Of a stretch of 64,000 nucleotides of DNA, positions 7,588 to 59,436 are shown in pieces (within the stretch, counting starts at the first letter, position 1; every line of letters starts with the position of its first letter). A program made the position numbers and the translations under genes. A model generated the notes under the pieces. The model was not told the origin of the DNA. It worked only from the letters and a program-made list of their open reading frames with translations, and did not search any database. The DNA is from a virus. The stretch spans positions 25,505-89,504 of the IMG/VR virus record IMGVR_UViG_3300009126_000274; one strand, 5' to 3'.

Positions 7588-7596
7588 ATAGTCATA

Positions 7597-7625
7597 ATTA
7601 TAGTAGATCCCGAACCTGGAATCAA
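7597..7625 (-). promoter_or_regulatory. Sigma70-like early promoter for primase
   Basis: On the minus strand, TTGATT (7625-7620) is followed after 17 bp by TATAAT (7602-7597). The ATG of the primase is 9 nt past the -10, leaving a leader of about 2-3 nt. Spacer sequence CCAGGTTCGGG resembles the GGTTC seen in other promoters of this genome. Confidence 0.7.
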
Positions 7626-7654
7626 ATAGAATTATACCGTTTTGGTGTTCTTTA

Positions 7655-12111: not shown

Positions 12112-13656
12112 CTAGATAGCCAATTTCTTTTGTTTATACGTTTCTATAAAGTTCTTTGCATATTCACTTGGTATTGGTAACTCGCTTTGTAGTTTGGACA
12201 TATCTTCCCATTTATATTGTGGATCTATTAACCAATTATGATAGCCAAATGGCAATGGTGGCTGATCAGTTCCCGTTGTGTACCACTCATGTTCCAAAAA
12301 GTTTATTACTTCATACAAATCTAGAGTATCTGATTTCCAGTTCATAAAAGATACTTCTTCCTGGAATGTGCTTTCTTCTGTTTTATATACAGTTTTATTA
12401 GGATTTTCTTCTCTTTTCTTAAGAGCTTCATACATTTTGCCATATCTTTTTTGAGGACCATCTTTCCATGTTCTATTGCCTATAATAGTTTCTGTAAATC
12501 CGTATTTTGCTGGGTCTTTTGAAAATCTGCTTTGTTCATCGTATGGTCTTGGGTCACTAGGTATCCACAAAGGATTGATTAAAGCAGTTTGGCCTTGCCA
12601 ATTATTTTCTAACCATCTTTTTGTTTCCCTTAGAGTATCTAAAGTTTCATATGGTAAACCAGCAATTAAATTTATATGTCCCTGAAAAAATCCTTGCTGC
12701 TTAGCCCAATGTTTGTAATTTAAAAGACCATCTTGTAGTTTAACAGTTTCCATGCCCTTTCCTACCGACTTTCCTGAAGGTCTATGGAAAGATTCAATGC
12801 CATAGAATTGAGAATTTAATCCTAAATCATGTATCATTTGCCAGTCATCTGGTTTAGAAACTAATAAATCTCCTCGAATATAACCTGCCATATTAGGTTT
12901 AAAGGGTAGTTTTTTAATTTGATTAGCATATCTGTATAGCTTTTCTGTGTAATCGTTTACTGTTTCGTCTGCTATTGAGTAGTTAGTTACACCCCATTTT
13001 TCATAATTTGTAAGTAATTCATTATATAAATTGTCCTCTGCTCTGCTGTGATCTTCTTTAATTCCTCTATGGGTTAGTGTACAGAAGTGGCAATTAAATA
13101 TACAACCACGGCCAAACTCTACTGTAAGGACCTCCTGTGGCTGGATATGATCCCTATCTTCGTAATAAGTAGATAAGTCTTTTAATTGTGCTGCAGGATA
13201 ATCATGTGTTGCATCTATACGACGGTAAGGATGTCCATTAAGCCACATGTGATCTGAATACTTTGGATTGCCTTTAAGAATAGCAGTTATGGCCAATTCT
13301 CCGTAACCGTGTACCACATAATCAATTGGTAATCCTTCTACATTATATAATGATTGAGAGCCTGCTACGATTAAAACGTCAGGATATTCTTTTTTAAACC
13401 AGGGTACAAATTTATATAGATGTTTAAATCTAATTGAGAATGTAGCGCTTAGGCCTAAGAATTTTGTTTTGTTTGTTACTCGTTGGCGGGAGAACTCTTT
13501 TAACTCATCTAGAGTCCAAGAGTTTACAAAGTCTAGAACTTCTATATCCCAACCTTCTCGTCTTAAGTGTGTTGCTATTTTGTGAGCTCCTGGAGCTCTT
13601 TTGATTGAATCATAATAATAGTCAACCACACCACCCATAATAATACCGTGGTTCAT
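12112..13656 (-). CDS. Radical SAM enzyme with N-terminal cobalamin-binding-like domain
   Basis: 514 residues. Residues ~1-130 look like a B12-binding Rossmann domain (hydrophobic strands, FLGLSATFS, VLIVAGSQS, DYVVHGYGE). The radical SAM core starts near residue 185 with FGRGCIFNCHFCT, giving the CxxxCxxC cluster ligands. The later TIM-barrel part includes GINLIAGLPYET-like sequence. Such enzymes do methylations or rearrangements of lipids, nucleobases or peptides; no substrate can be named. The N-terminal domain lacks a clear DxHxxG base-off motif in the part I checked, so cobalamin binding is uncertain. It lies among virion-type genes. Confidence 0.8.
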   Translation of the reverse strand: MNHGIIMGGVVDYYYDSIKRAPGAHKIATHLRREGWDIEVLDFVNSWTLDELKEFSRQRVTNKTKFLGLSATFSIRFKHLYKFVPWFKKEYPDVLIVAGSQSLYNVEGLPIDYVVHGYGELAITAILKGNPKYSDHMWLNGHPYRRIDATHDYPAAQLKDLSTYYEDRDHIQPQEVLTVEFGRGCIFNCHFCTLTHRGIKEDHSRAEDNLYNELLTNYEKWGVTNYSIADETVNDYTEKLYRYANQIKKLPFKPNMAGYIRGDLLVSKPDDWQMIHDLGLNSQFYGIESFHRPSGKSVGKGMETVKLQDGLLNYKHWAKQQGFFQGHINLIAGLPYETLDTLRETKRWLENNWQGQTALINPLWIPSDPRPYDEQSRFSKDPAKYGFTETIIGNRTWKDGPQKRYGKMYEALKKREENPNKTVYKTEESTFQEEVSFMNWKSDTLDLYEVINFLEHEWYTTGTDQPPLPFGYHNWLIDPQYKWEDMSKLQSELPIPSEYAKNFIETYKQKKLAI

Positions 13657-41154: not shown

Positions 41155-42113
41155 TAGTTAAGAGTACCAAAACCATCTAATTCAAACTCAATTTTATATG
41201 CTAAGTCTTGATGGCATTTAACTCCTGGATGCAACAAATCTCTTCCTACATCATCTAAGCCCAACCCAGGTGGTGGCTCTTTTTCTTGCATAGGTTTTAA
41301 TATTGTTTCACTCATTACTTGTAGAGCCTCTTCAGGATCTGCTGGTAATGTAACACCAACTCCAGGTATGTGTTGGTGTATTAAAGTTAGGTCGTCTGCA
41401 TAATTATATGTAGATTCTTTTGACATGTCTGCTGGGTCGTCAGACGTTCCGTTAATCCATAGTATAGGTATGTTCCAATTCTCTCCTAGTCTAATTATGG
41501 TTTTCATCATTATCATATGTTGCCATTTTGCTACGCCCAAAGATTGATATAAAAAGAGTAGTTCTTTCTCTTTACTGTCTGGTTTGAGTGCCGCTGGTAT
41601 ATAATCTATATTCTTTACACTAACCGGAACATCTGGAATGCCTACAGAAATGCCTGTAGAATTTTGTGAACCAATTAATACCATATGTTTAGGCGGTGTT
41701 TTCCAATACTTACTTAGTTGTAAAAGGTTAAAGGGTAAGTTCTCTAGTCTACCACCATAAGTAGATGCATTATAGAAAGGAATGCCCATTCTTTCTTCTA
41801 AAATTTTGTGATATAAATCTCTGTTATGTAGTCCAGGACCTACACCAATGCATTCTGTAGAACATAAGACCCAATCACCGTCCAAATCTGCCACTTCATG
41901 ATCGGATCTGAAACCCAGAGAGTCAAATTTATAAGTAATGGGATCACTCTCGTTGTCATAATATTTCCACGTAGGTCCATACTTTTCTCTCGCTTTATTA
42001 AACCAGTCCCATGATTCATGTAACAACCACTTATATTCTTCTTTGGGATCTGCTTGGTAAGATATTAAACCGTGTTTTCCTAGGGTTATTTTTTGTAGTG
42101 GAACATTATTCAT
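41151..42113 (-). CDS. SGNH hydrolase-like protein
   Basis: 320 residues. YKFDSLGFRSD at ~65 introduces the domain, VLCSTECIGVGPGL looks like block I with Ser, FYNASTYGGRLENL like block II, and DLLHPGVKCHQDLA like block V (Asp, His). Related in plan to the 13.7-14.5 kb protein. It probably removes or transfers acyl groups. No signal peptide. It overlaps the crotonase gene by 8 nt. Confidence 0.7.
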   Translation of the reverse strand: MNNVPLQKITLGKHGLISYQADPKEEYKWLLHESWDWFNKAREKYGPTWKYYDNESDPITYKFDSLGFRSDHEVADLDGDWVLCSTECIGVGPGLHNRDLYHKILEERMGIPFYNASTYGGRLENLPFNLLQLSKYWKTPPKHMVLIGSQNSTGISVGIPDVPVSVKNIDYIPAALKPDSKEKELLFLYQSLGVAKWQHMIMMKTIIRLGENWNIPILWINGTSDDPADMSKESTYNYADDLTLIHQHIPGVGVTLPADPEEALQVMSETILKPMQEKEPPPGLGLDDVGRDLLHPGVKCHQDLAYKIEFELDGFGTLNY

Positions 42114-42870
42114 TCTTGAATTCAGGGGGCCTCTTTTCTATAAATGAGGCTATGCCTTCTTCTATATCTTTTGACTCTAGACACATGTCCTTAGCCCAAA
42201 GAGCAAAGTCAATGGCTTCATCCATATTAGAGTTTACTGTATGCCATACTGCTCCCTTAGTCCCCCTCACAGCTATTGGTCCACACTCTGTGGCTATACG
42301 ATGTGCAAAGGCTAAAGCTCTCTCATCAACGTCTCCATGGCATACCATATTACATAGTCCTACTCTCTCCAACCACCAAACATCATGCTCGTCACCTGGC
42401 ATCATAAAAGAAATAGCTCTATTAGAACCTATTCTTTGTGTCAATTTAACTTGCATAGTAACAGCATTGAAACCTAATTTAGTTTCAGGACACATGAATC
42501 TGCTAGTCTCATCTGCGAAAACAAAATCACTAGCTAACATCAATCCAAAACCCTCTCCTATACACCAGCCTTTAATTGCTGATATAATTGGTTTAGGTGT
42601 TACCATATCGTTATCTGATAATAGAAAACCCCAACCCTCTTTTAGTCCTTGATGTATTGTCTTAACATCAAAACCTGCTGTAAAATGGTTGGGATTGCCG
42701 GATCGTATGACAAGAACCCTAGCTTCATCGTCATCTCTGAACTGAACTAGGGCGTCATTGTATCCTGCGTAAAAGGGTTTGTCTAAGATATTTAAAGGAC
42801 CGACACCGTTTATTGTTAAAACGGCGACGTGGTCGTTTAAATCGTAAGTGATTCTCTCACCAAATTCCAT
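42106..42870 (-). CDS. Enoyl-CoA hydratase/isomerase (crotonase) family protein
   Basis: 254 residues, full family length. The oxyanion-hole regions are seen as NPNHFTAGFDVK and KGWCIGEGFGLMLASDF, and a helical C-terminal trimerisation part follows. Family members hydrate, isomerise or cleave acyl-CoA thioesters. The usual catalytic Glu pair is not obvious: the second site reads FMCPETKLGFN, with Glu in the right place, so isomerase or hydrolase activity is possible. A full-length crotonase is very rare in phages. GGAG precedes the ATG. Confidence 0.88.
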   Translation of the reverse strand: MEFGERITYDLNDHVAVLTINGVGPLNILDKPFYAGYNDALVQFRDDDEARVLVIRSGNPNHFTAGFDVKTIHQGLKEGWGFLLSDNDMVTPKPIISAIKGWCIGEGFGLMLASDFVFADETSRFMCPETKLGFNAVTMQVKLTQRIGSNRAISFMMPGDEHDVWWLERVGLCNMVCHGDVDERALAFAHRIATECGPIAVRGTKGAVWHTVNSNMDEAIDFALWAKDMCLESKDIEEGIASFIEKRPPEFKNE

Positions 42871-42887
42871 AATATAAACTCCAAAAA

Positions 42888-43220
42888 TTAGAAGCTAGCG
42901 AATGTATTGCCTTCACTATCGTTTATCAATACTGTGATTCCTGCTGCTTCGCATGCTGACTTAACTGCTGCACGCGAGGCCGCTTCATCAGGAAGTGTTT
43001 CTAAATCTGCGTTTAGCTCATCAAAAGTTGCTTTGTCTGTTGCTTCAGCCTCTATTGTAAGCACTAACTCAGCTTCATCCCAAGTGTAAGTCTTAGTCAC
43101 GCCTGCTTCTGCATATTTAGTTCTCCAAACCGTATCGTGATCTGGATGTGAGTCAGCAATCTTAGGTAGTTCCACGCCTGTATTAGGCCTTGTCATTGTT
43201 ACTGTTCTTGTGTACGCCAT
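42888..43220 (-). CDS. Probable small virion or late protein, 110 aa
   Basis: MAYTRTVTMTRPNTGVELP then acidic helices with Ala-rich spacing (TLPDEAASRAAVKSACEAAG). No recognised domain. A late box TATAAATA lies 30 nt upstream and GGAG before the ATG, so late expression is expected. The first 12 residues resemble starts of some phage structural proteins. Confidence 0.55.
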   Translation of the reverse strand: MAYTRTVTMTRPNTGVELPKIADSHPDHDTVWRTKYAEAGVTKTYTWDEAELVLTIEAEATDKATFDELNADLETLPDEAASRAAVKSACEAAGITVLINDSEGNTFASF

Positions 43221-43299: not shown

Positions 43300-43653
43300 T
43301 TAATAACCTTGATCTTGTGGATAATCTTCTGCAAATATATCGCTAGCTACATGCTTTTCATCATGTACATATAAAGCAATAAGAGCATAATGTAAGACCT
43401 TTAGTAAGTCTTTCCTTGCATCTACAATTGATCCTTTCTTTCCATATCTTTGTGCATACTTTAAGATATTTCCTATACAAAATCCTAATCCATGTCCTCC
43501 ATCAACGATAAATTCAGTTGCCTGAAACTTATCTGAGGAGTAATGTCCGTTGCCATATGTTGCATCGATATAACGACGGAGCTCGTCTATGAGCTCCCCT
43601 TCGTTAAACTTATAATTAGGACTATTCGTCGTCTTCGATTTCAAAGTCTTCAT
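43300..43653 (-). CDS. DUF3310-like protein
   Basis: 117 residues from the ATG at 43653 (AGGAG 5 nt upstream). LGFCIGNILKYAQRYGKKG and DARKDLLKVLHYALIALYV match the helical DUF3310 pattern (NILKYxxRxxxK then DLxKaxxYl), a phage family related in context to nucleotide kinases. Activity unknown. It overlaps the CobS-like gene by 32 nt. Confidence 0.75.
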   Translation of the reverse strand: MKTLKSKTTNSPNYKFNEGELIDELRRYIDATYGNGHYSSDKFQATEFIVDGGHGLGFCIGNILKYAQRYGKKGSIVDARKDLLKVLHYALIALYVHDEKHVASDIFAEDYPQDQGY

Positions 43654-44815
43654 GTATCTCCTGTTCTTTAGTTGTATCCTCAGCAAGTTCTACTGTTGGA
43701 TCAACCTTAGTGTACAAATCGATGAATGCTTCTTTAGTATCATCATCAAATCTATTAACACAAAGTTGAACTGCTTTCTTTTTGTCTCCAAAAACTGCAA
43801 AAGCGTTAACGATGTGTTCCAATCTACGAGTTGAAATTAGCTCATCAATAGCTCCTTCGTAGTAAGTTTTTCTTATTACGTCGGACCAAGTAACTAAGTG
43901 AGTTGCAAAACCTTCGTCTACATTATTCACTCTTTCCATTTTCTTGAGAACTATTTTCTTCTCCGTAGCCATTGTAGGGTACTCCTGCTCCACGGTAATT
44001 GCAAACCTTTCTAGGAATGCTTCGTCGAGTATGTTGGCACTTATGAACTTGCCATCATCTGATCCTCGACCTTTAGTATTGGCTGTTGCCACTATATTAA
44101 AGCCTGGAGCAGGAGTTACGGTTTCGCCTGTCTTCTTGTTGAAATAAGGCTTCCCCTCAAGGATGGCTTGTAAGCACATCAACTTGTTTGAACCCCTATC
44201 GATTTCATCAAGGATAAGAACGGCGCCACGCTTCATAGCGGTGAGGACTGGGCCTTCTCTGTACACGACGTTACCGTCAACTAGAGTATTGCCACCAATT
44301 AAATCATCCTCATCAGTTTCAATACTTATGTTTACTCGTATGGCTTCTCTTTTAAGAGCTGCACATACTTGTTCTGCCATTGTGGTTTTACCATTACCTG
44401 ATAACCCACTAATGAATATTGGATAAAACAAGTTGCCTTGTAATACCTTTTTCAAATCTCTGTAAAAACCAAACGGTACGAATGTTTTATCTTTTCCAGG
44501 AATCAGGTCTTCAACTTCAACTTTAAGTTTAGCTTGGACAAGCTCTGCTGGGAGCTGTGTTTCAACTACTTCAAGTGGAACTCTAGGAGCTGCTACTGGA
44601 GCTGTTTGAACATTCAAACCTGAGCCTTGAAACATGGGTGCTAAATTATAAACACCTCTGTCTACTTTAAAGGTTGGTTTGTTAATGAGCCAGGCTGGAA
44701 ATCCTAAACCGATTTCAGTGGCTGTCTCTATGATTTGTTTACGGGTAAAAACACTTGTGCCATTGTCTTTGGCTTCTAGTGCCTCCTGTAATCTTTCTCT
44801 ATCAACTTGTTTCAT
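43622..44815 (-). CDS. CobS/MoxR-type AAA+ ATPase
   Basis: 397 residues. FISGLSGNGKTTMAEQV is Walker A, AVLILDEIDRGSNKLM is Walker B, NIVATANTKGRG is sensor 1, and STRRLEHIVNAF follows as sensor 2 region. The N-terminal ~100 residues are a separate domain with FTRKQIIETATEIGLGFPAW. CobS is one motor subunit of aerobic cobaltochelatase, but the same ATPase type works in MoxR-VWA chaperone pairs. The next gene encodes the VWA partner. A strong promoter precedes it. Confidence 0.88.
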   Translation of the reverse strand: MKQVDRERLQEALEAKDNGTSVFTRKQIIETATEIGLGFPAWLINKPTFKVDRGVYNLAPMFQGSGLNVQTAPVAAPRVPLEVVETQLPAELVQAKLKVEVEDLIPGKDKTFVPFGFYRDLKKVLQGNLFYPIFISGLSGNGKTTMAEQVCAALKREAIRVNISIETDEDDLIGGNTLVDGNVVYREGPVLTAMKRGAVLILDEIDRGSNKLMCLQAILEGKPYFNKKTGETVTPAPGFNIVATANTKGRGSDDGKFISANILDEAFLERFAITVEQEYPTMATEKKIVLKKMERVNNVDEGFATHLVTWSDVIRKTYYEGAIDELISTRRLEHIVNAFAVFGDKKKAVQLCVNRFDDDTKEAFIDLYTKVDPTVELAEDTTKEQEIHEDFEIEDDE

Positions 44816-44898: not shown

Positions 44899-47385
44899 TC
44901 ATGCTACTAACTCTATGATTTTGTTAAGGAATAACCTTTGATTTGTTTTTCCTTTGTTAAAATTTCTAAATCCTCTCATCAAATCGCCTTTTTTATTGGA
45001 TTTTACTTCCAATTCTTTGGTCTCAATCTTAAGATCATCTCTGCCTTTGATTAGGAATCTTTGATCAAATCCATATTTGTCTTCAACTATCATAAACTTG
45101 TTCTTCAAACAGTCCTTCCATTCATTTGAACACCATTCAAAAGAAGGGCTCCAATAGTGGTCTACGTCCATGCCATCCATCCAAACATTCTTATTCCACT
45201 CTTTCCAAAAGTGGTTTCTTTTGCCTTCAATAATGTGGAAGTTAATCATTCTAGAACCTGTGGTTTGTTGGTACCACTCTAGTAATGTTGGAGTAGCAAA
45301 TTCATTTCTTGAGTACCTCTCTGCCTTGGCTTCAATAACCACTGTTGCACTACCGTCTTTAATTGCTACCTTCTCATCGTAAATACTTTTACTTCTAGCT
45401 GAGACCTCTTTGTCGTCCCAACCTTTCCTGGTTATGTAACATAAGTTATCTGTTGCACCACCATCTGTTAAAAATATTGTGCTTAATATTTCAACATTAT
45501 ATCTTTTTCTAAATATTTTTGCCACTTCTTTACCAACAATAATTGCTGAGTTAAGAGGTGTGCTACCTAAAGCAAAGTGAGGATTCTTAATGTAACCCCA
45601 ACACTCTCCATTGTCACCATAGTCATTGTAATATCTTCTGTGATCAAAGCCACACTTCATAACACTCAAATACTTCATTGCATTTATGTATTCGTTCTTT
45701 GAACACATGGAAGACAACATATGAACCAAGCAAAAACTGCTGTTATCAACTATCATTTGACCGTCTTCCAGAGTTTCAATTGCTTCTTTTTGTTTTGTCC
45801 ACCAGTGGTTTTTTCTATCTTCTTCAGTTAATCCTTTGTTACCTGCTGAGCTAAAACCATATACATCAAATGGAATGTTTACTTTCCTACAAAATGCTGC
45901 CACGTTCATCATTTGATCTATTGTTCCTGACATGTTTCTATACATACTTCCTGATAAGTCTACGAACATTAGGATACCGTGGTTTTTACCATCAGGTACT
46001 ATTAAAGCCCTTTGGAATAAATCTTCTGTCAATTTGTAAGCCCAAAGCTTATCCTCATTTAACTTACCAATTTTGGCTATTGAGGACTTCTTATAAGCAG
46101 TTGCTGCTTTTCTAAGTTCAAATTGTTGTGCCATGCTATTAATAATTGGAGTCTGTGTTCTGTTCCACTTCTCATATATCTTAGTAGCTACGTCATATAC
46201 TTCATGACCTGGAATGTTTCTTTCTGTCCAGTGGCCGTCCTTATCTCTAGACGCTTGTTGTAATTCAATGGAAAGATCCCAATTATAAAGTTCATTCATT
46301 GGGACTATATAATCTTTTGGATCTAACTTAGGAGCTTTAACATAAATTAAATCTGCTGCGTCTTGATCTACTAATGTTTTTTCATTATCTCTAAAAGCAT
46401 TATCTGAAAATGATTCATTGTTGTCTAAAGCTTTTTGTAAATCATCTAATTTTTCTTTAAGCTCTTGGTCTTTTTTGGCCTGTTCAGCTGCTGCTTTTTT
46501 GGCATCTTCTTCAGCCTGTCTTTCTTCAGGAGTTAGCTTCAACCATCTTTGATATTCTTCTTCTTCCTTTTTAGCTCTTTCTTCTCGCTCTGCTTCTTCT
46601 CTGGCTTCTGCCTCTGCTTCAGTTTCTTCTCTGTCATATTCATCAGGGTCTATTGGGTTACCAAAACTGTCTGATTCTACTTCATTAATATCAGGCTTTG
46701 CCTCGTCATCCCCAGCTTGTGCTTCTCCGTTATCCACATCCTCACTGGCTGAATCTGAGGCATCACCCTTAAATCTTTGTGGCATCATCTTTTCGATCAT
46801 GCTTTCTAATTCGTCTTTCTTTTCATCTACATCTTTAGCATTAGCTGCAAACAATTCATTGGCTAAACGTTCAACGTCTTCCCAAGTCTCTGCTTTGGCA
46901 ATCCTATCTACTAAATCTTTTTCTTCTGTAGTAAACTTGACACCCATCATATGACCTACTTTATAATGTAAGTTCACTCTATCAATTAATGGGAGTTTGT
47001 TGATGTCTAAATCTTTTATTCCAAAAAAGTCTCCATCAACTAATTCTTTATAACCTTTGAAAAAGCTACTAACTAATCCAGGATATCTTTCTTTAACCTT
47101 ACGTTCAATCCTTACGTCTTCTACTACGTTAAGAAAGTTTTTCTTAGCCCTGTCATCACATACTGCGTCATGCCATCCTTCAGCTGGTGTTTCATGTGCG
47201 TGTCCTACTTCATGGCCTATGAATAAGTCATAAAGTGAGGGTGACATTTTCTTCCAGAGTGGAAGGTATAAAGTTCTAGCCTTTACATCAAATGCTGCTG
47301 TTGGAGCTTTAGGATCATGTACTATTGAAATGTCTTCTGTTGCTAAACATTTTGCTAGTATTGATTTGGATTCTATTCTGTTCAA
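44899..47385 (-). CDS. CobT-like protein: N-terminal zincin-like domain, acidic linker, C-terminal VWA domain
   Basis: 828 residues. FIGHEVGHAHET (residues ~56-67) contains HExxH, followed by NVVEDVRIE, a possible third Glu ligand, so the N-terminus looks like a zinc peptidase. Residues ~215-320 are very acidic and coiled. FVDLSGSMYRNMSG near 475 is the DxSxS MIDAS metal site of a VWA domain, which continues to the end. CobT in cobaltochelatase has a VWA but the peptidase-like head is different, so a protein-remodelling or processing machine with the AAA+ partner is likelier. The likely start is TTG at 47385. Confidence 0.85.
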   Translation of the reverse strand: MNRIESKSILAKCLATEDISIVHDPKAPTAAFDVKARTLYLPLWKKMSPSLYDLFIGHEVGHAHETPAEGWHDAVCDDRAKKNFLNVVEDVRIERKVKERYPGLVSSFFKGYKELVDGDFFGIKDLDINKLPLIDRVNLHYKVGHMMGVKFTTEEKDLVDRIAKAETWEDVERLANELFAANAKDVDEKKDELESMIEKMMPQRFKGDASDSASEDVDNGEAQAGDDEAKPDINEVESDSFGNPIDPDEYDREETEAEAEAREEAEREERAKKEEEEYQRWLKLTPEERQAEEDAKKAAAEQAKKDQELKEKLDDLQKALDNNESFSDNAFRDNEKTLVDQDAADLIYVKAPKLDPKDYIVPMNELYNWDLSIELQQASRDKDGHWTERNIPGHEVYDVATKIYEKWNRTQTPIINSMAQQFELRKAATAYKKSSIAKIGKLNEDKLWAYKLTEDLFQRALIVPDGKNHGILMFVDLSGSMYRNMSGTIDQMMNVAAFCRKVNIPFDVYGFSSAGNKGLTEEDRKNHWWTKQKEAIETLEDGQMIVDNSSFCLVHMLSSMCSKNEYINAMKYLSVMKCGFDHRRYYNDYGDNGECWGYIKNPHFALGSTPLNSAIIVGKEVAKIFRKRYNVEILSTIFLTDGGATDNLCYITRKGWDDKEVSARSKSIYDEKVAIKDGSATVVIEAKAERYSRNEFATPTLLEWYQQTTGSRMINFHIIEGKRNHFWKEWNKNVWMDGMDVDHYWSPSFEWCSNEWKDCLKNKFMIVEDKYGFDQRFLIKGRDDLKIETKELEVKSNKKGDLMRGFRNFNKGKTNQRLFLNKIIELVA

Positions 47386-47497: not shown

Positions 47498-49063
47498 TTA
47501 GATGCTTAAGTCAAAAGAAATGAGGAATTCTCGTCCGCCAGCAGCATATTCTGGCAGAATTTCGAATTTTTTATTGAAAATGTCCCTGATCTGTAACCCT
47601 ATCCTGTACCTGGGTCCTAGGTAGTAACCTAGAGTTAGGTCTAAGGTTGATACATCATCTATAGGCCGGTTGGCATAATCCAAACCCTTTTCAAACTCAC
47701 CTATATAGACTATTCCATAGTCAATTTTGCCAAACGTATTTGAATAACTTAGTTTGGTCTTATACTTGGGTGATTGAAGTTTATCTGTATCTGTATATTG
47801 AACTAATATACTATAATTTTCATATGATTTATTGAACTTAAACCCTGAGGATTCATAACTGCCTGTATTGATATATTGATAGTCAGCAAAATTAAAATCT
47901 ATTCCGTCGCTAAACTCGTAATGCCAAATTGTAATGCCCTTCCATCCTACTTCTAAACCTACACCCTTTTCAGGATTTAAAAGTGAATTAGGTTTAACCA
48001 TTTGGTCTCCAAACCTTTCATATAAATTAGGAAGTCTATAACTATTCCCTAATGAAAATCTAAAATCTTTTACTTCAACACCTGTTCTTATTGTTTGAGC
48101 GTCATCTTCGTAACGATATCCTATCCCAAATTTATATGGAACGACAGATGTTCTTACTTTAGCTTCTTGTTCTTTAAACCAGTTAAAATAGACTCCTGTT
48201 CTCCAAGCCTGATATCTTGTAGGGACTGGAGATCTAAAATAGTAATCATAATCTTCTTGTTGTGCTGTTACGCCTGTTAAGAAATTTTTATATTTGTACT
48301 TTGCGTCTGCAAATATACGAGAACTTTTAACACCCCAACCTGTATTATGTTTTGCACTATTTAAATTGTATCCTAGGGTGAACCAATCATTCCTAATAGA
48401 TATATCTGTTTTATAACCTGATTGATTACAATCATTATATTCTATCGTAGAAGGTAAGCAATCATCATAATCGTAACTGTAATCTTGAGACACCATAACA
48501 ACATCAAACCCTGCAAAATTCGATTTTGTTTTAAGTGTTGTATTATCATACCAATCTTCTTCACTATTTGTTGTCTTAACAGAGCCTATTGAACCTTTGA
48601 ATCTAGATATTTGGAACCACTCATTACCCCCTGAGATCATTTGTTGTGCATCTCCTCCTTTATAAAATACATGTTTATCAAATGTATCTTCTATAAGGAT
48701 TGTTCCTGCCATTGAAGAGCTACCAAACAATGCACTATTAGGTCCTGAAATTTTTTGATACTCTTGAAACGTAGGTAAATCTATTCCAAAATCATACCAC
48801 CCTGACGAAGGATCATTAACAGGTATGCCGTTTCTATATACTGTTGTGTGTTTTGTGTCTGTCCCGTGTAGTCCTGCTCCAATAAATCCACCAGGGCCTC
48901 CTGGAGCATATACTTTTGTTCCTTCTACTGCTTCTATTGCTGAATTATCGTGTGCTGGATCTGAATATCCTGTAGTAATCTTTGATCCTACTACTAACGT
49001 TTCTTCTACTTCTCCAAATGCTACTGTAGGTAGTAGCATTAACATTATAACGAACTTTCTCAT
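47498..49063 (-). CDS. BtuB-like TonB-dependent outer-membrane receptor
   Basis: 521 residues. It has a signal peptide (MRKFVIMLMLLPTVAFG), then a TonB-box-like EETLVVGS. The plug has GLHGTDTKHTTVYRNGIPVN and ISGPNSALFGSSSMAGTILI, matching the BtuB plug signatures (VxIDGVRLN and GPxSAxYGxxAxGGVV). The rest alternates short beta strands with Tyr/Trp girdles and ends in FLISFDLSI, as a 22-strand barrel does. Substrate by resemblance is vitamin B12 or another cofactor, but this is only inferred. It overlaps no gene and sits between a secreted protein and the CobT-like gene. Confidence 0.85.
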   Translation of the reverse strand: MRKFVIMLMLLPTVAFGEVEETLVVGSKITTGYSDPAHDNSAIEAVEGTKVYAPGGPGGFIGAGLHGTDTKHTTVYRNGIPVNDPSSGWYDFGIDLPTFQEYQKISGPNSALFGSSSMAGTILIEDTFDKHVFYKGGDAQQMISGGNEWFQISRFKGSIGSVKTTNSEEDWYDNTTLKTKSNFAGFDVVMVSQDYSYDYDDCLPSTIEYNDCNQSGYKTDISIRNDWFTLGYNLNSAKHNTGWGVKSSRIFADAKYKYKNFLTGVTAQQEDYDYYFRSPVPTRYQAWRTGVYFNWFKEQEAKVRTSVVPYKFGIGYRYEDDAQTIRTGVEVKDFRFSLGNSYRLPNLYERFGDQMVKPNSLLNPEKGVGLEVGWKGITIWHYEFSDGIDFNFADYQYINTGSYESSGFKFNKSYENYSILVQYTDTDKLQSPKYKTKLSYSNTFGKIDYGIVYIGEFEKGLDYANRPIDDVSTLDLTLGYYLGPRYRIGLQIRDIFNKKFEILPEYAAGGREFLISFDLSI

Positions 49064-49067
49064 TTTA

Positions 49068-49454
49068 TTAAGGGTTATAAAGCCCTCCGTATGGTAAGCT
49101 CCAATTAGGGCATACTGGATACACTATTTTTCCGGTTGGGCCTCCTGGATATGCTGGAGGTATTGATTTTATTCCTGATCTTGCACAAGGCGGTTCTTTC
49201 TTTTTCTTATTTTTTTTAGAAGTGATTGGTGTTAAAACTAAGGTTCCGTCTGGTGTTATGTATGCCACTTCATATTGTGATATGTCTAACGTTAGGCCAG
49301 ATCCTCCATCTTTTTTGTCAATATTCATTCCTAAAGCAATGCCTCCTACAATACCTATTATTACATCAGAGGTATCTGCTGCTCTTGCTGACTGTGAAAA
49401 TAGTATTAAGCCTGCAACAAGCAATACTATTATTGTCCATTTAAATCTTTTCAT
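49068..49454 (-). CDS. Secreted or periplasmic protein of unknown function
   Basis: 128 residues from the ATG at 49454, with AGGAG 6 nt upstream. MKRFKWTIIVLLVAGLILFS then QSARA is a signal peptide with an AxA cleavage site. The mature part has a Gly-rich start, a Lys-rich run (KKNKKKKEPPC) and a Pro/Gly-rich end with two Cys. The same frame extends 36 codons upstream to a GTG at 49562, adding an acidic, coding-like segment (EEEYKRHFQEDDTTEFLNDA), so a longer form without an N-terminal signal is possible. It precedes the TonB-dependent receptor gene by 4 nt and may act with it. Confidence 0.65.
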   Translation of the reverse strand: MKRFKWTIIVLLVAGLILFSQSARAADTSDVIIGIVGGIALGMNIDKKDGGSGLTLDISQYEVAYITPDGTLVLTPITSKKNKKKKEPPCARSGIKSIPPAYPGGPTGKIVYPVCPNWSLPYGGLYNP

Positions 49455-49545
49455 GTTTTTCTCCTGTGGTGGTATGGGAAATTCTAAATCATATTGCGCT
49501 GCATCATTTAAAAATTCTGTTGTATCGTCTTCTTGAAAGTGTCTT

Positions 49546-50151
49546 TTATACTCTTCTTCCACGCTTTTTACCTACTAAATGTTTTGATTTCTTTTTAACC
49601 TTACTATTTCTCTTTTCTAATCTTTTCTTAACTTCTGATGGGTCCATCCAAAAGTCTTTGCCTTCTATCATCTCATTTATTTCTTTAGGCTCTAAAAATC
49701 CTTTATAAACCTCAGTAAATAAATGTCTTGCCCACTTATCGTCTGCAATAACTGATGCTAATTGTTCATTTCCTTTACCCCAATTACCTGAACTGTAAGT
49801 ATGGAACATGAAGTGACTATGATCTGAGACTTCACATACATCTGCACATAAAAATATTAACGTTGCTGCTGACATACACATACCTTCTACTGATGCTATA
49901 ACAGTTGCTGGACTTTCAGCCATTGTTCTCATCAATTGAATTGCTGTAAATATATCTCCGCCACTAGAATTTATGTGTAATATTACTGCATCATTTTCAG
50001 TTGCATTTCTCATCAACTGATTCCAGACCGTATAGTCTTTTGCTTCTTTTATATCACCTGAGATATAAAAGTCTAAGATACGAGCAACGGGCTTTTCAAA
50101 AGCATCATTCGCAATCTGTGGTGGTTGTTGTATTGGTTTAGATTCGCTCAT
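49546..50151 (-). CDS. clpP: ClpP-like serine protease
   Basis: 201 residues. ILHINSSGGDIFTAIQL gives the oxyanion and catalytic framework. EGMCMSAATLIFLCAD holds the nucleophile Ser, and HSHFMFHTYS the catalytic His. The C-terminus is very basic (KKRGRRV). In marine phages ClpP may act in host protein turnover or prohead maturation; without an unfoldase in the window this is open. Overlaps both neighbours. Confidence 0.88.
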   Translation of the reverse strand: MSESKPIQQPPQIANDAFEKPVARILDFYISGDIKEAKDYTVWNQLMRNATENDAVILHINSSGGDIFTAIQLMRTMAESPATVIASVEGMCMSAATLIFLCADVCEVSDHSHFMFHTYSSGNWGKGNEQLASVIADDKWARHLFTEVYKGFLEPKEINEMIEGKDFWMDPSEVKKRLEKRNSKVKKKSKHLVGKKRGRRV

Positions 50152-50491
50152 AATATCTTGTAACTACCTTTATCTTTTCAATTTGTTTGTCAATGATTGC
50201 CGTTCTATTAGGCCAATGTATATATTCCTTTTCAGGATTCTTTTGCAAATTGTAAAGTAGAGGGAGTACAAGATCTTCTACATCACGAAGTTTGGTTGAT
50301 ACATCATTTTCAATTAACGTTCTATGTTCGTTTACCATTCCAGAGTTATCTGCATTTAAAATTTTAGCTTCTAGTTCTGCCAATTTATCCATTATCTTAT
50401 CTTCGTCGATGGAGGGAGCGCTTGGCTGAGCAGGTGCCTCGGAAGGTACCTCATCTACAGCCGTAAAACCGAAATCAAAATCGTTTGCCAT
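50138..50491 (-). CDS. Conserved marine phage protein, 117 aa
   Basis: It begins MANDFDFGFTAVDE, then an acidic/Pro-rich segment, then a helical region (DKIMDKLAELEAKILNADN) and HWPNRTAIIDKQIEKI. The NDFDFGFTAVDE start is a recurring motif in T4-like marine phages. Function unknown. Late box 17 nt before its ATG, so late expression is likely. Confidence 0.65.
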   Translation of the reverse strand: MANDFDFGFTAVDEVPSEAPAQPSAPSIDEDKIMDKLAELEAKILNADNSGMVNEHRTLIENDVSTKLRDVEDLVLPLLYNLQKNPEKEYIHWPNRTAIIDKQIEKIKVVTRYYERI

Positions 50492-50508: not shown

Positions 50509-50516
50509 TATTTATA
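50509..50516 (-). promoter_or_regulatory. T4-type late promoter box
   Basis: TATAAATA on the minus strand in the 35-bp gap after the peptide deformylase gene, 17 nt before the ATG at 50491. Probably also reads into clpP and the secreted protein. Confidence 0.72.
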
Positions 50517-51616: not shown

Positions 51617-51846
51617 TATCCTGCTCCTTGTTGTACTAGATTTTTGAGTTCGTTAAACCCACCTATGGGTTTATCGTTTATGAATACCTGAGGAAATGTT
51701 TTTGCCTCTGGTACTAATTCAAATAATTCTTCTGCTGTATAGTCTGCATCTAATAACTTGTATTCGTATTCTAAATTTAATCGTTCACATAAAGCCTTTG
51801 CACTTGTGCAAAAACCACATCTTGGTTTTCCATATATTACTATCAT
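51616..51846 (-). CDS. Glutaredoxin
   Basis: 76 residues. KPRCGFCTSA is the CxxC active site, KTFPQVFINDKPIGG the cis-Pro and glutathione-binding region. It probably re-reduces NrdA or the peroxiredoxin. Overlaps gp46 and the SET gene (TAATG). Confidence 0.93.
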   Translation of the reverse strand: MIVIYGKPRCGFCTSAKALCERLNLEYEYKLLDADYTAEELFELVPEAKTFPQVFINDKPIGGFNELKNLVQQGAG

Positions 51847-53513
51847 ACTATTATACTATAATTTTGTTTCTTCTCGAACTTAACTACTGATCTAAACTTA
51901 TCAAATAGTTGGTCTCCTTTGTGAGATATTACGAATACATTCGTGTCGTTGCCAATAGTTTCTAATAATTGCATAACATATTGGGTTCCGTCTGTGTCTA
52001 ACGAACTATCAAACACCTCATCTAATAATAAGATATTTGTACTAGCGCTATTCTTCATCTTGGCTATTGTTCTCCAAGTAAATACTAACGCTAAGTCTAT
52101 TCTTTGTTTCTCTCCTTCACTAAACGATGCGTAACTAAATTTATCTCTGAACCTGGACTTAATTGTTTCTTTAAACGTCTCATCTAAATCAAACTGTACA
52201 AAGAAGTCCATCGCTGCTAAGTATTTATTAACCAATTTGTTAATTATTGGCAAATAGGCTTTAATAATCTTAGTTTTAATACCAGAATCTTTTAATAAAG
52301 ATTGAGCTACATCATAATAGTGGCTGTCTTCTGTTAATTTTATTTTGTTTTTTTGTTTGCCTAAAGCATCTTTAGCTAATTTTTTTAATTTTGTTCTCTC
52401 TTTTGTTATATCGCCTACTTTATCTTGTGTGTCAGCAAGTTCTAGCTGTAGTCGTTGTAAGATTTTCTGTTGTGTAATACTTTCATTATTGTGATCCATT
52501 ATTTTTTGATCTAACTCAAGTACCTTTTCAACAAGTGTTTCTACTTCAACATACTTTTCTTCTAATTCATCTAAAGCTGTTTGTAATTCATCAATCTTTT
52601 CTTTATCTCTGGCAGTCATCACTTCCTTGTGATCATGCGCTATCCCTTGCTGACACGTGGGGCATTCGTCATTGTCATGAAAGAAGTCTAAGTCTTTTCT
52701 GTGGGTGTTGATTTGGTGTGTGAATTTTCTTTTAAATTCTTCGAGTCTTCTTTTCTTCTCATGGACATCACCCATTGCCGTCTTCTCGCCTGTTGTCGCC
52801 TTCGCAAATTCCCTAGCCGTCTCGATCGCATCTTCTGCCTCCTTAATTGCTGTTGCTATTGTTTCTACTTTAGACTTTTTATCATCTTCTAATGTCTTTA
52901 TATATGATTCTTGTAACTCCGCCTTTTGCTTAGCCACTTCTATATCACCTTCCAATAATCTAATCTGGTTTTCTAAAAGTGTTATTTTATCTTTAAGAAC
53001 TTTATTCATAGAAGTGAATATAGTAATGTCTAATATATCTTCTATAATCTCTCGCCTAGCTCCTAAATGTAACTGCATAAACGGTGTAAAAGACGCACTA
53101 CCTAACATCACAATCTGTGTGAATGATTTGTAATTAAGTTTTAATATGTTCTCCTCTAAATACTTTTGGAAATCTCTTATGTTGGCATCTTTATCTAACT
53201 TAATACCATTAACTTCTATCTCAAATATCTTAGGCAATTCCCCACGTCGTATTAAATAGTTTCTTTTGCCAATAGAAAAATTAATTTCAACCATTAATTG
53301 TTTTCTATTGATTGAATTAACCAACTGTGGTTTAGATACATTTCTAAATGGCTTATTGAATAGGGCAAAGGTTAGTGCATCTAACATTGTAGACTTACCA
53401 CTACCATTCTCTCCAACGATTAATGTGCTAGGTGATTTGTCAAACTGTATTTCTGTCCATACGTTTCCTGTAGACAGAAAATTTTTCCACCTTATGTTTT
53501 TAAAATGAATCAT
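51843..53513 (-). CDS. 46: Recombination nuclease subunit gp46 (Rad50/SbcC family)
   Basis: 556 residues. Walker A VGENGSGKST at ~33, a zinc hook CPTC near residue 285 flanked by long coiled coils, the ABC signature SFSEGEKQRIDL near 480, and Walker B NILLLDEVFD. Pairs with gp47 to resect ends for recombination-dependent replication and host DNA degradation in T4. It overlaps gp47 by 4 nt. Confidence 0.95.
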   Translation of the reverse strand: MIHFKNIRWKNFLSTGNVWTEIQFDKSPSTLIVGENGSGKSTMLDALTFALFNKPFRNVSKPQLVNSINRKQLMVEINFSIGKRNYLIRRGELPKIFEIEVNGIKLDKDANIRDFQKYLEENILKLNYKSFTQIVMLGSASFTPFMQLHLGARREIIEDILDITIFTSMNKVLKDKITLLENQIRLLEGDIEVAKQKAELQESYIKTLEDDKKSKVETIATAIKEAEDAIETAREFAKATTGEKTAMGDVHEKKRRLEEFKRKFTHQINTHRKDLDFFHDNDECPTCQQGIAHDHKEVMTARDKEKIDELQTALDELEEKYVEVETLVEKVLELDQKIMDHNNESITQQKILQRLQLELADTQDKVGDITKERTKLKKLAKDALGKQKNKIKLTEDSHYYDVAQSLLKDSGIKTKIIKAYLPIINKLVNKYLAAMDFFVQFDLDETFKETIKSRFRDKFSYASFSEGEKQRIDLALVFTWRTIAKMKNSASTNILLLDEVFDSSLDTDGTQYVMQLLETIGNDTNVFVISHKGDQLFDKFRSVVKFEKKQNYSIIV

Positions 53514-56108: not shown

Positions 56109-56445
56109 TCTGTACGATTGCCCCATTTTCATTATCCTCATACACTTCTACTTGAGTAGCTCTATCAGGATAATATTCTTCTATATAATTTATAAGACTT
56201 TCTGCCATCATCTCACATGACTGGTAGTCTAGTTGTAATGTTCCAATATCATATTGCTTTTCTAATTCTCTTTTAAATAAAATGAATTCTACTTCTCTGT
56301 TGTCGTGCATGACTTCTAACGTAACATAGAAGTAAAAGATATGTCTGTGTGGATGTTGTAAAAACTCTACACCCGGTACATCTTTTGCATCAGGCCAACA
56401 ATGTATTCCTTCTTTCTGAAAACTAACTTTAATAAACTTCTTCAT
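56092..56445 (-). CDS. Divergent T-fold (QueD-like) protein paired with DpdA
   Basis: 117 residues. FLQHPHRHIFYFYVTLEV resembles the QueD HGHxYxVxVxxE strand; REVEFILFKREL resembles DFGxLKxxL; SCEMMAESLINYIEEYYP then VEVYEDNENGA resembles the PTxExxAxxI helix and C-terminal VxVxET. Key QueD catalytic residues (Cys and the downstream His-Asp) are not clearly kept, so a different reaction is likely. The ATG overlaps the dpdA stop (ATGA), so both are coupled. A second T-fold next to dpdA is unusual. Confidence 0.6.
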   Translation of the reverse strand: MKKFIKVSFQKEGIHCWPDAKDVPGVEFLQHPHRHIFYFYVTLEVMHDNREVEFILFKRELEKQYDIGTLQLDYQSCEMMAESLINYIEEYYPDRATQVEVYEDNENGAIVQNDLFN

Positions 56446-57710
56446 TCAAACATATCCTCCAAACTAACTGGCATTTCTTTAGCTACTGCCATTGACTTCA
56501 TCGCTCCACCTAAATATTGATTCGTTTCCCAAGCCATATAATCACTTTTACTTTTTACATTATAGAGATTCCTGAACTGTCCGTCAAGTTTCATCTTACC
56601 AGTAAACTTTAAAAGGTCCTCCTTGTTCAACATCATTTGTTCTAAGTGTTGCATGAAGTTTCTAATTGACATTAATATAAAAGCTGTTCTAACATAAAGC
56701 CACTTGTTCAAATTGCCGTATTTATCTTTAGCTTTTAAGCTAGGAGTATTTAATAACGTATGAAATTCGTCTAATTCTACGCCTAAATTGATCGTTTCCA
56801 TGCAGTTTTGATACATTTCGCGATATAAATTAGACATCTGCCTACTAAACTTAGTTGTACCCTCACCTTGATAGAAAAGACCTGTCTCAACCGCCCTGCT
56901 GTGTGTAGTAGAGTCATAAGATATTTCTACATTATCATATAAACCATTTTGTACAAAGACCAAGTAAGGAATAATACGTCTTATAGAACCTACTCCCAAT
57001 ATATGTAAGTGCATCTTATCTCGTGGCCACATCTTTGCTATTTCTGATGCAATAAATGATCTTTTAACATCTTCTAAAGGACCTGTTCCAAGAGCAGCTG
57101 CTCCCATTGCTACGCCACCGATCCTAGTGTGCCATTCACTTGGTATCTCATTCATTAAAGCTTCATACCATCTTAAATAGGTCTCTACATCGTTACCTTG
57201 TAAGATAATATATGGCTCACAGCTACTCTCTTCTTCATCAAATATTTCTAGTTGTCTTTTAACATTTTGGCCAGTTTTTTTAGCATAGTCTAAATAGTTT
57301 TCGTGATCAAAGATTCTGCCTTTAACATCGTTTCTTTCTGAACGGTCTCCTGTTAGTATTACAGGTATTTCATCAAAGCACATACCTACATTGGCTCCTT
57401 TAGCCTGATTCCTATATACTTTTTCTTTAAGTTCGTCTGTAATGTTCAATCCAAGTGTAACCATTTGAAGTCCACCTGAATCAGCATGGATACTATGTAC
57501 TGCATCGTGATATGGTTTAAATCTCTCACCAAAAGAATGTTCTGTATGTGCATTATAAAGTAATGAAAACTTATGACTGAATTGATCTTGTACTAATTTG
57601 TTTATTAGCATTGAAACAATACCAGTATTCGTATCATCAAGAGCAATATTAGGATTACTCAAACGCATGTAAGAGGTTCCTGATACTACATAATCTAAAG
57701 TATGTTTCAT
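56442..57710 (-). CDS. dpdA: DpdA-like tRNA-guanine transglycosylase homologue acting on DNA
   Basis: 422 residues from the ATG at 57710. HADSGGLQMV near residue 75 matches the TGT DSGGFQ base-binding loop with its Asp. GGVAMG near 198 and HILGVGS near 236 match the GGLxxG and MGVG strands. EISYDSTTHSRAVETG near 266 holds the nucleophile Asp (the FDC-xPTRxxRxG block). TGT family members swap guanine for 7-deazaguanines in tRNA, and phage DpdA versions do so in DNA. The start overlaps the stop of the micro membrane gene, supporting 57710 over a TTG 19 codons earlier. FolE, QueD and QueE neighbours confirm its pathway. Confidence 0.82.
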   Translation of the reverse strand: MKHTLDYVVSGTSYMRLSNPNIALDDTNTGIVSMLINKLVQDQFSHKFSLLYNAHTEHSFGERFKPYHDAVHSIHADSGGLQMVTLGLNITDELKEKVYRNQAKGANVGMCFDEIPVILTGDRSERNDVKGRIFDHENYLDYAKKTGQNVKRQLEIFDEEESSCEPYIILQGNDVETYLRWYEALMNEIPSEWHTRIGGVAMGAAALGTGPLEDVKRSFIASEIAKMWPRDKMHLHILGVGSIRRIIPYLVFVQNGLYDNVEISYDSTTHSRAVETGLFYQGEGTTKFSRQMSNLYREMYQNCMETINLGVELDEFHTLLNTPSLKAKDKYGNLNKWLYVRTAFILMSIRNFMQHLEQMMLNKEDLLKFTGKMKLDGQFRNLYNVKSKSDYMAWETNQYLGGAMKSMAVAKEMPVSLEDMFE

Positions 57711-57823
57711 GTTATCTGTGTATATAATGCGTACACCAAGAGCATTAGAATAATTGTCAAAGCCCAAAAGATATATTGTATTGGGAATGAAGTGTATAGT
57801 ATTTTGTTTATTAATTTTCTCAT
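57707..57823 (-). CDS. Micro membrane protein, 38 aa
   Basis: ATG at 57823 overlaps the exonuclease gene; one transmembrane helix (FWALTIILMLLVYALY) with a basic N-terminus. Its stop overlaps the dpdA ATG (ATGA), so it might gate dpdA translation. Function unknown. Confidence 0.55.
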   Translation of the reverse strand: MRKLINKILYTSFPIQYIFWALTIILMLLVYALYTQIT

Positions 57824-58347
57824 GTTTTTAATATCTCAATAAGTGTTTCTGCCTCAGCTTTAGCATCATCTAAAGCATTATGGTTATTTGATTTGGGTAA
57901 ACGTTTATCTAAAACATTCATTAAAGTTCTTAAACAATAAATATCCCAAAACTTCCAAGGGTATTTGTCCCTGGCATCTCTGTTAGCATTCCAACCAGAT
58001 AGTGTCATAGCGTTTTCCATTATAACAACATCAAAGTTGGCCCCTAGTCCCCAAATATTTCCTTCTTTAAAAAATGTAACGAATTTATCTATAGCTTCAT
58101 CTAAAGGTAAAGGGTCTACTGTTAGTGCCTGTCTTGCTTGCATGTCTTGTTCTGCCCACCACTCTACTGTTAGTGGATCTATATGTAGGCCTGCTTCTTT
58201 ACATGTCTTTGCATCTACATTCACATAAAACTCATCTACTATTTCTAAATTCTCAATAGCTACTGCACCAATTGATACAATAGCTGCATTGGATCTAGTA
58301 GAAAGTGTTTCTAAATCTAATACTACTTGTCTGCTATAAATGTCCAC
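57820..58347 (-). CDS. DEDDh-type 3'-5' exonuclease
   Basis: 175 residues. VVLDLETLSTRSNAAIVSIG gives Asp and Glu of motif I, GLGANFDVVIMENA motif II, and NHNALDDAKAEAETL motif III (His and Asp). It resembles RNase T/DexA exonucleases. T4 DexA is larger, so this may act on DNA or RNA. Overlaps folE by 14 nt. Confidence 0.88.
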   Translation of the reverse strand: MDIYSRQVVLDLETLSTRSNAAIVSIGAVAIENLEIVDEFYVNVDAKTCKEAGLHIDPLTVEWWAEQDMQARQALTVDPLPLDEAIDKFVTFFKEGNIWGLGANFDVVIMENAMTLSGWNANRDARDKYPWKFWDIYCLRTLMNVLDKRLPKSNNHNALDDAKAEAETLIEILKT

Positions 58348-59017
58348 CGTTCATCTCCTGCAACTTAATGTTGTCCATGAACTCCTCTTTTAATGAAGGA
58401 TTCGTTTTTAATTCACCTTTTAAAACTGTTGTCTGTGTGCTACTATTACTAGCTTTGATGCCTCTATTTTCACAACACCCATGTCTTGCCTTAATATAAA
58501 CACCTACCGCCTTAGACTTTGTAAGTTTCTCAATTCTGTATGCTATCATTTCACATAATTCTTCTTGTAAGTGACCTCGTGATGCTAAATGCTGTGCCAC
58601 TCTAGTATATTTAGACAGTCCAATTACTTCTTCTCCTGGCATACACGCCACATAACATACACCACTGACAGGTTGATGATGGTGTGAACACATACTCTTA
58701 ATATCCATTCTAACTACAATCAATTGATCATACTTTCCATCATTAGGAAATGCTGTTATCCTAGGATCGTTATCATATCTACCACCCATGATTTCTAATA
58801 TATACATTTTTGCTAAACGTCTAGCTGTGTCTATACTATTAGGATCATTTTGCCTATCAATAATTAATGTATCTAAAACACCTTCAAACTTTTCAGTCAG
58901 TTCATCTATTAAGTCTGACTTTTCAGTTGGACTAAGGTATTTTGATATGTTATCAGCTGCGTAATAGCGTTTACCGTCTACTTCCAGCCTCTGCCTTATT
59001 TTTTCACTTGTACTCAT
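58334..59017 (-). CDS. folE: GTP cyclohydrolase I
   Basis: 227 residues from the ATG at 59017 (GGGAGAAG just upstream). MCSHHHQPVSG with zinc Cys/His, GLSKYTRVAQ and RHGCCENRGI are present, matching the FolE zinc site (Cys, His, Cys) and the active-site region. It opens GTP to dihydroneopterin triphosphate, the first step of 7-deazaguanine and folate synthesis. Its own promoter lies inside the phosphoribosyltransferase gene. Confidence 0.9.
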   Translation of the reverse strand: MSTSEKIRQRLEVDGKRYYAADNISKYLSPTEKSDLIDELTEKFEGVLDTLIIDRQNDPNSIDTARRLAKMYILEIMGGRYDNDPRITAFPNDGKYDQLIVVRMDIKSMCSHHHQPVSGVCYVACMPGEEVIGLSKYTRVAQHLASRGHLQEELCEMIAYRIEKLTKSKAVGVYIKARHGCCENRGIKASNSSTQTTVLKGELKTNPSLKEEFMDNIKLQEMNGGHL

Positions 59018-59436
59018 TTCTTCTCCCATGGAAATACTAACCATCTACTATCATTATAGAGTCTTTCGCCTTCAAAGTCAATACCCATGTCACCCTTTTT
59101 GGAGTAAAGTACAGCCCATTGACTTTCTGGAAAGACATTTCTAATTTGTTTTATTGTTAAACCACTATCACATATATCATCTACAAATAAAATATCGTTT
59201 GGATCTTCTGTTGACATTAATGCTACTGATAGGGTATCTTTATTGTGGCCATCTCTAGTTTGCCATTGTAAAGGTTCAAAAGGAATGTCTAATGCCTGGG
59301 ATAATATAACTCCTGGAACAAGGCCGCCCCTGCTGATACCTACAATTTTTTTATAATTTCTCTCACTAATTCTTGCTGCTAAAAGGATACATATTTTGTG
59401 CATTTCCTTCCAACCTATATAAATTTTGTCTGTCAT
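59014..59436 (-). CDS. Purine phosphoribosyltransferase-like protein
   Basis: 140 residues. IVGISRGGLVPGVILSQALD is the N-terminal flexible-loop region, and ILFVDDICDSGLTIKQI is the PRPP-binding motif. Resembles xanthine-guanine or hypoxanthine phosphoribosyltransferases. It may recycle the guanine released when DpdA exchanges bases in DNA, an attractive but unproven link. Start ATG overlaps the preceding stop. Confidence 0.85.
   Translation of the reverse strand: MTDKIYIGWKEMHKICILLAARISERNYKKIVGISRGGLVPGVILSQALDIPFEPLQWQTRDGHNKDTLSVALMSTEDPNDILFVDDICDSGLTIKQIRNVFPESQWAVLYSKKGDMGIDFEGERLYNDSRWLVFPWEKK
59053..59081 (-). promoter_or_regulatory. Sigma70-like early promoter for folE/dpdA region
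   Basis: TTGACT, 17 bp, TATAAT on the minus strand, inside the phosphoribosyltransferase gene near its 3' end, 36 nt before the folE ATG. Near-perfect consensus. Confidence 0.78.

Follow-up and report, generated by a model that had tools for sequence, protein, structure and literature searches.

The receptor locus

The window, by which we mean the whole stretch of 64,000 nucleotides analyzed here, belongs to an 89.5-kb IMG/VR virus record. This record is that of a T4-like myovirus: its DNA polymerase shares 48% identity with the polymerases of T4-like phages of Synechococcus, and it has RecA-like, primase, clamp-loader, gp46/47, NrdAB and CobS genes. At positions 47498-49063 of the window, on the minus strand, an open reading frame with an ATG start encodes a BtuB-like protein of 521 amino acids (Table 1). 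The initial annotation, which had proposed a BtuB-like TonB-dependent outer-membrane receptor at this locus, gave the exact limits of the frame and left its strand unstated; the strand is the minus one, the plus strand being full of stops. The motifs quoted in support of that proposal are all present, namely a signal peptide, EETLVVGS (residues 20-27), GIPVN (residues 79-83), GPNSALFGSSSMAGTILI (residues 107-124) and the C-terminal FLISFDLSI, and the codon pattern is as normal as had been claimed (distance of 0.238, with 0.161-0.349 for other window genes; GC3 of 0.23, in a range of 0.21-0.35).

Table 1. Features of the receptor locus and of the proposed cofactor consumer (window coordinates)
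Feature	Position	Strand	Evidence or remark
gp46-like recombination endonuclease subunit	51843..53513	-	Core landmark upstream of the slot
Putative T4-type late promoter TATAAATA	50509..50516	-	Heads the receptor operon
First operon gene, 117 aa, no assigned function	50138..50491	-	
ClpP-like protease	49546..50151	-	Same operon as receptor; PF00574 E 2.6e-10
164-aa gene, no assigned function	49068..49562	-	Ends 4 nt before receptor start
Receptor CDS, BtuB-like, TonB-dependent, 521 aa	47498..49063	-	ORF, Pfam, TIGR01779, PDB profile, AF2, Foldseek
Signal peptide MRKFVIMLMLLPTVAFG, residues 1-18	49010..49063	-	By inspection
TonB box EETLVVG, residues 20-26	48986..49006	-	Family conservation; aligned to E. 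coli BtuB DTLVVTA
Plug deletion site, 17-21 residues, family-wide, opposite BtuB ~22-38	48955..48966	-	Spacing counts
Plug core, residues 42-126, motif NGxPxND...GWYDFG	48686..48940	-	PF07715 positions 28-107; invariant columns
Extracellular-loop region YSYDYDDC...NDC, residues 195-212	48428..48481	-	Calcium-ligand equivalents Y199/D200; cysteine pair C202/C212
22-stranded beta barrel, residues 131-520	47504..48673	-	AF2 secondary structure
phrog_459 'peptidase', marine T4-like core gene	44899..47385	-	Next downstream of receptor; E 1.9e-172
CobS-like AAA+ protein	43622..44815	-	phrog_249 E 4.4e-111; TIGR01650 below cut-off; 54% to HTVC008M CobS
Predicted cobalamin-binding radical-SAM enzyme, proposed consumer	12112..13656	-	PF04055, PF02310, PDB profile, Foldseek

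In the lineage of the window phage, the slot is arranged in the order gp46, def, ClpP, receptor, phrog_459 and CobS. The surrounding gene order is the same as in the Pelagibacter phage HTVC008M (gp55, gp47, gp46, slot, peptidase, CobS, gp45, gp44, gp62, RegA and gp43), in which the slot is occupied by three unrelated genes and no receptor, whereas in the window it holds def, ClpP and the receptor. The cargo of T4-like cyanophages and pelagiphages (cobS, the phrog_459 peptidase, def and nrdAB) likewise provides a genome frame that is common to the window phage. The concern of the initial annotation that the gene might stem from a chimeric assembly is answered by related contigs, since the neighbors of the receptor are the same in independent contigs at protein identities of 79-81% and approximately 50%, and the order matches that of HTVC008M; a 170-kb contig, G448, keeps these neighbors too. 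This contig (IMGVR_UViG_3300020472_001862, L254; G448:C1:98000-117000) is the longest relative, has two genes of the B12-type radical-SAM kind besides that of the receptor, and constitutes a good reference genome for the phage lineage.

The initial annotation also named SAR11-type bacteria among conceivable marine Gram-negative hosts, and nothing was found in support of a SAR11-type host. No psbA gene was detected in 34 records, which argues against a cyanobacterial host and does not settle the matter, and dependence on TonB would require a Gram-negative host possessing TonB.

Several other genes of the window deserve mention. Genes for a QueC-like protein (2788-3441), GTP cyclohydrolase I (58334-59044), a QueE-like protein (59810-60688) and a tRNA-guanine-transglycosylase-like protein (phrog_10773; 56442-57767) together suggest a putative 7-deazaguanine DNA-modification pathway in the phage. 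A full-length enoyl-CoA hydratase (crotonase) gene lies near CobS (42106-42870), has relatives with approximately 69-76% identity in related phage contigs and represents unusual phage cargo, and a second radical-SAM gene, of the 'twitch' type (NF033640 above cut-off; 35950-37263), is flanked by the clamp-loader genes and by the gene for the DNA polymerase.

The receptor appears to belong to an operon under late control. The heptamer ATAAATA, which is the core of TATAAATA, lies 25-29 nt before the ATG of the 117-aa gene that heads the operon in all 17 loci in which the receptor occupies the gp46-CobS slot (context A, below). Among 19 other homologous gene starts used for comparison, the heptamer was found in no locus for 18 and in eight of ten loci for the remaining one (42888). 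The motif is not enriched across the window (13 observed, 10.9 expected), so that the evidence for a late promoter is its positional conservation, from which late transcription of the receptor operon may be proposed. The exception among the compared starts, the gene at 42888-43220, follows CobS and has a second conserved late-promoter-like ATAAATA upstream.

Predicted structure and conserved residues of the receptor

The Pfam Plug domain (PF07715) is found in the receptor with 27.1 bits, above the curated cut-off of 23.9, over profile positions 28-107 only, and it also exceeds the cut-off in relatives from nine of nine other contigs. Two stretches of the protein align with the BtuB model TIGR01779 (E 1.4e-15), at a score far short of the equivalog cut-off (56.9 vs 599.7 bits), so that the cargo of the receptor cannot be read from family membership. 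When a profile of 46 phage relatives was compared with the PDB, the best match was E. coli BtuB (E 3e-26), and the next chain was a Bacteroides B12 transporter (7.6e-4). The AlphaFold2 model (pLDDT 87.7, pTM 0.87) predicts a plug followed by 22 barrel strands, with the plug core kept and modeled with good confidence. As had been anticipated, the predicted fold is of the TonB-dependent receptor type and nearest to BtuB: the top nine Foldseek matches in the PDB are all E. coli BtuB, and the matches listed are TonB receptors throughout. That a genuine BtuB-like receptor is encoded by this phage can be taken as practically certain.

The phage receptor has in common with E. coli BtuB (1nqe, 1nqh, 2gsk) the plug, the 22-strand barrel, of which the C-terminal part is readily alignable, and the TonB box. 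It is shorter (521 vs 614 residues, with approximately 24% identity) and differs in lacking residues ~22-38 of the BtuB plug, in an invariant cysteine pair, in a GWYDFG plug motif and in being phage-encoded. After the plug glycine G67 the phage barrels extend for 428-463 residues, against at least 507 in bacterial BtuB, and they end in SI, SM, TL or RP, the last residue being non-aromatic in most members, whereas that of BtuB is F. The Bacteroides BtuB-BtuG systems (8bmx, 8blw, 8p98) are also TonB-dependent corrinoid barrels and match weakly both by profile and by fold; they are larger and have a surface lipoprotein partner, while no such partner could be recognized beside the phage genes.

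The signal peptide evolves fast across the family (mean conservation 0.39). The TonB box, on the other hand, follows the pattern EE[IVT][VIL]VVG in 46 sequences and aligns with the LVVTA of BtuB; E20 is present in all 46, E21 in 43, V24 in 44 and G26 in 45, and the mean conservation of residues 19-27 (0.74) is matched by that of the plug core (0.73). From the TonB-box valine to G67 the distance is 39-43 residues in each of 32 phage proteins and 58-60 in each of 28 bacterial ones. The missing stretch of 17-21 residues thus corresponds to BtuB ~22-38, which lies essentially within BtuB residues 23-73, the mechanically weak subdomain of the plug that is unfolded by TonB for opening (PMC5413942). 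Since these residues are gone from the segment that TonB unfolds, gating of the phage receptor may differ from that of BtuB.

A second group of conserved residues lies at what we take to be the calcium-cage positions of BtuB (D179, D193, D195, Y229, D230 and D241). In the 32 phage receptors D195 and D230 are aspartate without exception, Y229 is always Y or F and D193 is always replaced conservatively by E, with Y229, D230 and D195 identical in the receptor of the window. D241 corresponds to N or D in 29 receptors (N in most) and D179 to S in 31. In BtuB itself the calcium cage comprises five aspartates (PMC7360065). The cysteines C202 and C212, which are invariant in the phage receptors and absent from bacterial relatives, probably pin the neighboring loop. 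Close receptor pairs yield dN/dS values of 0.13-0.19, indicating that the protein is maintained by purifying selection.

Distribution and ancestry of the receptor family

TonB receptors had been described as very rarely phage-encoded, a view at odds with the relatives that two short peptide patterns detected in approximately 140 IMG/VR contigs; further relatives adjoin CobS. In the 80 contigs kept for gene-context sorting, the receptor occurs in four contexts: in the gp46-CobS slot (A), after nrdAB and the gene found at 1-987 of the window (B), beside a gp32-like gene (C) and ahead of a UvsW-like helicase, with a RecA-like gene nearby (D). In context D, as seen at L043, the receptor is directly preceded by an AAA-type ATPase gene (5691-6731) and a family-less 382-aa gene that overlaps the receptor start (6796-7944), both of them possible partners. 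No receptor was found among the cultured phages of INPHARED, where the few matches are deposited bacterial contigs.

A maximum-likelihood tree was built with 32 phage proteins, 26 bacterial BtuB-like proteins (including E. coli BtuB), CirA and FepA. The phage receptors form one side of a branch of length 1.28 with a support of 100/100 and no bacterial row inside, some bacterial long branches elsewhere in the tree being uncertain, and sampling of approximately 700 bacterial genomes yielded no member of the phage clade. The phage-receptor profile scores full phage members at 600-750 bits, bacterial proteins at 124 bits or less and CirA at 18.7 bits, and does not detect FepA. Close relatives in SAR11-type or other marine Gram-negative hosts, which the initial annotation had suggested looking for, did not materialize, no useful bacterial match being obtained by homology search. 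Recent theft from a host was considered and rejected, given the single deep clade of the phage proteins and the low scores of their bacterial relatives. The receptor family is phage-only, widespread and shortened in its plug throughout, three properties that are absent from the initial annotation.

The sole further viral protein with a clear structural match to the receptor is a SusC-like TonB receptor (UniProt A0A8D9FQQ5), encoded on a record that is annotated as an uncultured marine phage. It is a protein of 805 residues, named as SusC type and with 12% identity to the phage receptor, and presumably represents a separate acquisition; with it, viral TonB receptors were already represented in the databases before the BtuB-like family. 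No relevant study of phage-encoded TonB receptors was found in the open-licence literature, which is weak evidence of absence. TonB receptors are well known, and what is new in this family is that its members form a clade restricted to phages and have a trimmed plug.

A predicted cobalamin-type radical-SAM enzyme and its link to the receptor

The product of the gene at 12112-13656 matches the radical-SAM family PF04055 above cut-off and, at its N-terminus, the B12-binding-type PF02310 below cut-off. The cysteines of its CxxxCxxC motif (C185, C189 and C192) are invariant. A profile search of the PDB returned only TokK and CysS, two cobalamin-dependent radical-SAM methylases, and the best Foldseek matches of its AlphaFold2 model (pLDDT 85) are TokK, CysS, MgmA and TsrM, with AprD4 also among the matches. 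The model resembles enzymes solved with cobalamin; given the match to AprD4, a relative of the same fold, use of this cofactor is likely rather than certain. Eighteen loci of marine viruses have genes of this type, which also occur as paralogues in the CobS cassette and are absent from cultured phages.

In three contigs (L013, L015 and L018) the receptor is followed after 11 bp by the start of a B12-type radical-SAM gene, and the 170-kb contig has two copies, one of them the fourth gene after the receptor in the receptor-CobS cassette. Besides this contig, such genes are present in nine of 44 receptor contigs, mostly short fragments. When only receptor contigs above 37 kb are considered, nearly all of which are partial, the gene is found in eight of 20 and not found in the other 12, against none of four receptor-less CobS contigs, a difference that is not significant. 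The counts are few, the contigs are not independent of one another and the radical-SAM gene was itself the means by which one of them was detected, so that the co-occurrence is suggestive only.

Two further links to B12 were considered and set aside. The ribonucleotide reductase of the window is of class I (NrdA/NrdB), and no B12-dependent class II enzyme was found that could act as a consumer. CobS cannot serve as proof of a B12 role, as it belongs to the core of T4-like cyanophages and pelagiphages and the receptor lies elsewhere in contexts B-D.

Function of the receptor

Among the roles raised by the initial annotation, import of a cofactor is favored on account of the TonB box, the retention of most calcium ligands and the linkage, in the genome, to a radical-SAM enzyme that is predicted to depend on B12. 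The TonB box and the retained ligand-site residues argue for energized uptake, and the kinship with BtuB together with the radical-SAM linkage argues for a corrinoid cargo. In the mechanism that we infer, the receptor gene would be transcribed from the late promoter and its product exported to the outer membrane of the infected Gram-negative cell and inserted there, and calcium-ordered loops would bind vitamin B12 or a related corrinoid. Through its conserved TonB box the receptor would be coupled to the TonB-ExbBD complex of the host, which would pull out the shortened N-terminal plug segment and release the ligand into the periplasm; import would then be completed by the host's own inner-membrane system, and the cofactor would serve B12-dependent enzymes during infection, including the phage radical-SAM protein where present. 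To the complete reading of the receptor as a late-expressed, TonB-powered corrinoid importer we would give an even chance. The points that count against it are the score below the BtuB equivalog cut-off, the substitutions at D179 and D241, the trimmed plug, the non-aromatic last residue, the 12 long receptor contigs in which no B12-type radical-SAM gene was found and the class I type of the ribonucleotide reductase.

Uptake might instead be TonB-dependent and directed at a different scarce ligand (another cofactor, a metal complex or a tetrapyrrole) through a BtuB-derived barrel with a diverged pocket. The low identity to E. coli BtuB and the many receptor contigs without a B12-type enzyme are in line with this possibility, as is the fact that substrates often change within TonB-receptor subfamilies. 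We nevertheless regard it as rather unlikely, because the receptors for other substrates, CirA and FepA, match the phage profile far less than BtuB, because the next solved structure is again a B12 transporter, and because the calcium-ligand positions are mostly kept.

It is also conceivable, and in our judgment unlikely, that the protein acts in superinfection control, with TonB coupling being incidental: the phage barrel would compete with, replace or act as a decoy for a host receptor, misdirecting rivals or progeny that re-adsorb on debris. The exclusion factors known so far are as a rule small proteins made early that obstruct a receptor, and not new receptors themselves, and a decoy would need neither a TonB box conserved like the plug core nor the kept calcium-ligand positions; the linkage to a cobalamin-type enzyme would also be left unexplained. 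In favor of such a role, TonB receptors serve as receptors for phages and colicins (PMC11658791), the phage barrel is shorter than that of bacterial BtuB, and expression looks late, when debris and rivals count.

A leaky or ungated pore, in which the short plug would permeabilize the outer membrane late in infection and help nutrient entry or lysis, could draw on the absence of 17-21 residues of the weak half of the plug in all members, on late expression and on the observation that a destabilized BtuB plug renders the outer membrane permeable to bulky molecules (PMC5413942). The lost piece, however, is part of the opening segment, while the retained core is among the most conserved and well modeled regions, and an ungated pore would require no TonB box and no ligand site, which makes this reading very improbable. 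Finally, BtuB-type receptors are otherwise bacterial and no cultured phage has one, but an assembly chimera or misclassified bacterial DNA, in which a btuB gene of bacterial origin would have been fused to that of a phage, is scarcely credible in view of the four separate phage contexts, the fully supported phage-only clade and the codon use like that of neighboring genes, and the synteny shared by independent contigs, the 170-kb contig among them, rules out an assembly join for practical purposes.

Implications for marine T4-like viruses

Known phage cargo genes are, to our knowledge, mostly intracellular enzymes. An energized outer-membrane nutrient transporter maintained by selection in several marine myovirus lineages would mean that viruses reprogram the imports of the infected cell. 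Enhanced uptake of B12 during infection by B12-dependent virioplankton was put forward as an open possibility in a 2023 study (PMC10547690), and the receptor family provides a concrete candidate gene for it. The family also constitutes a natural experiment on TonB gating, in which approximately one third of the TonB-unfolded segment of BtuB-type receptors (residues 23-73, PMC5413942) has been removed and the TonB box retained. It may tentatively be postulated that a virus-only lineage of TonB transporters, with a trimmed force-gated plug, imports corrinoids to feed phage cobalamin enzymes late in infection, and that marine T4-like viruses would in this manner control the vitamin acquisition of their hosts. 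The family itself suggests that phages may manage the uptake of scarce vitamins by the cells they infect.
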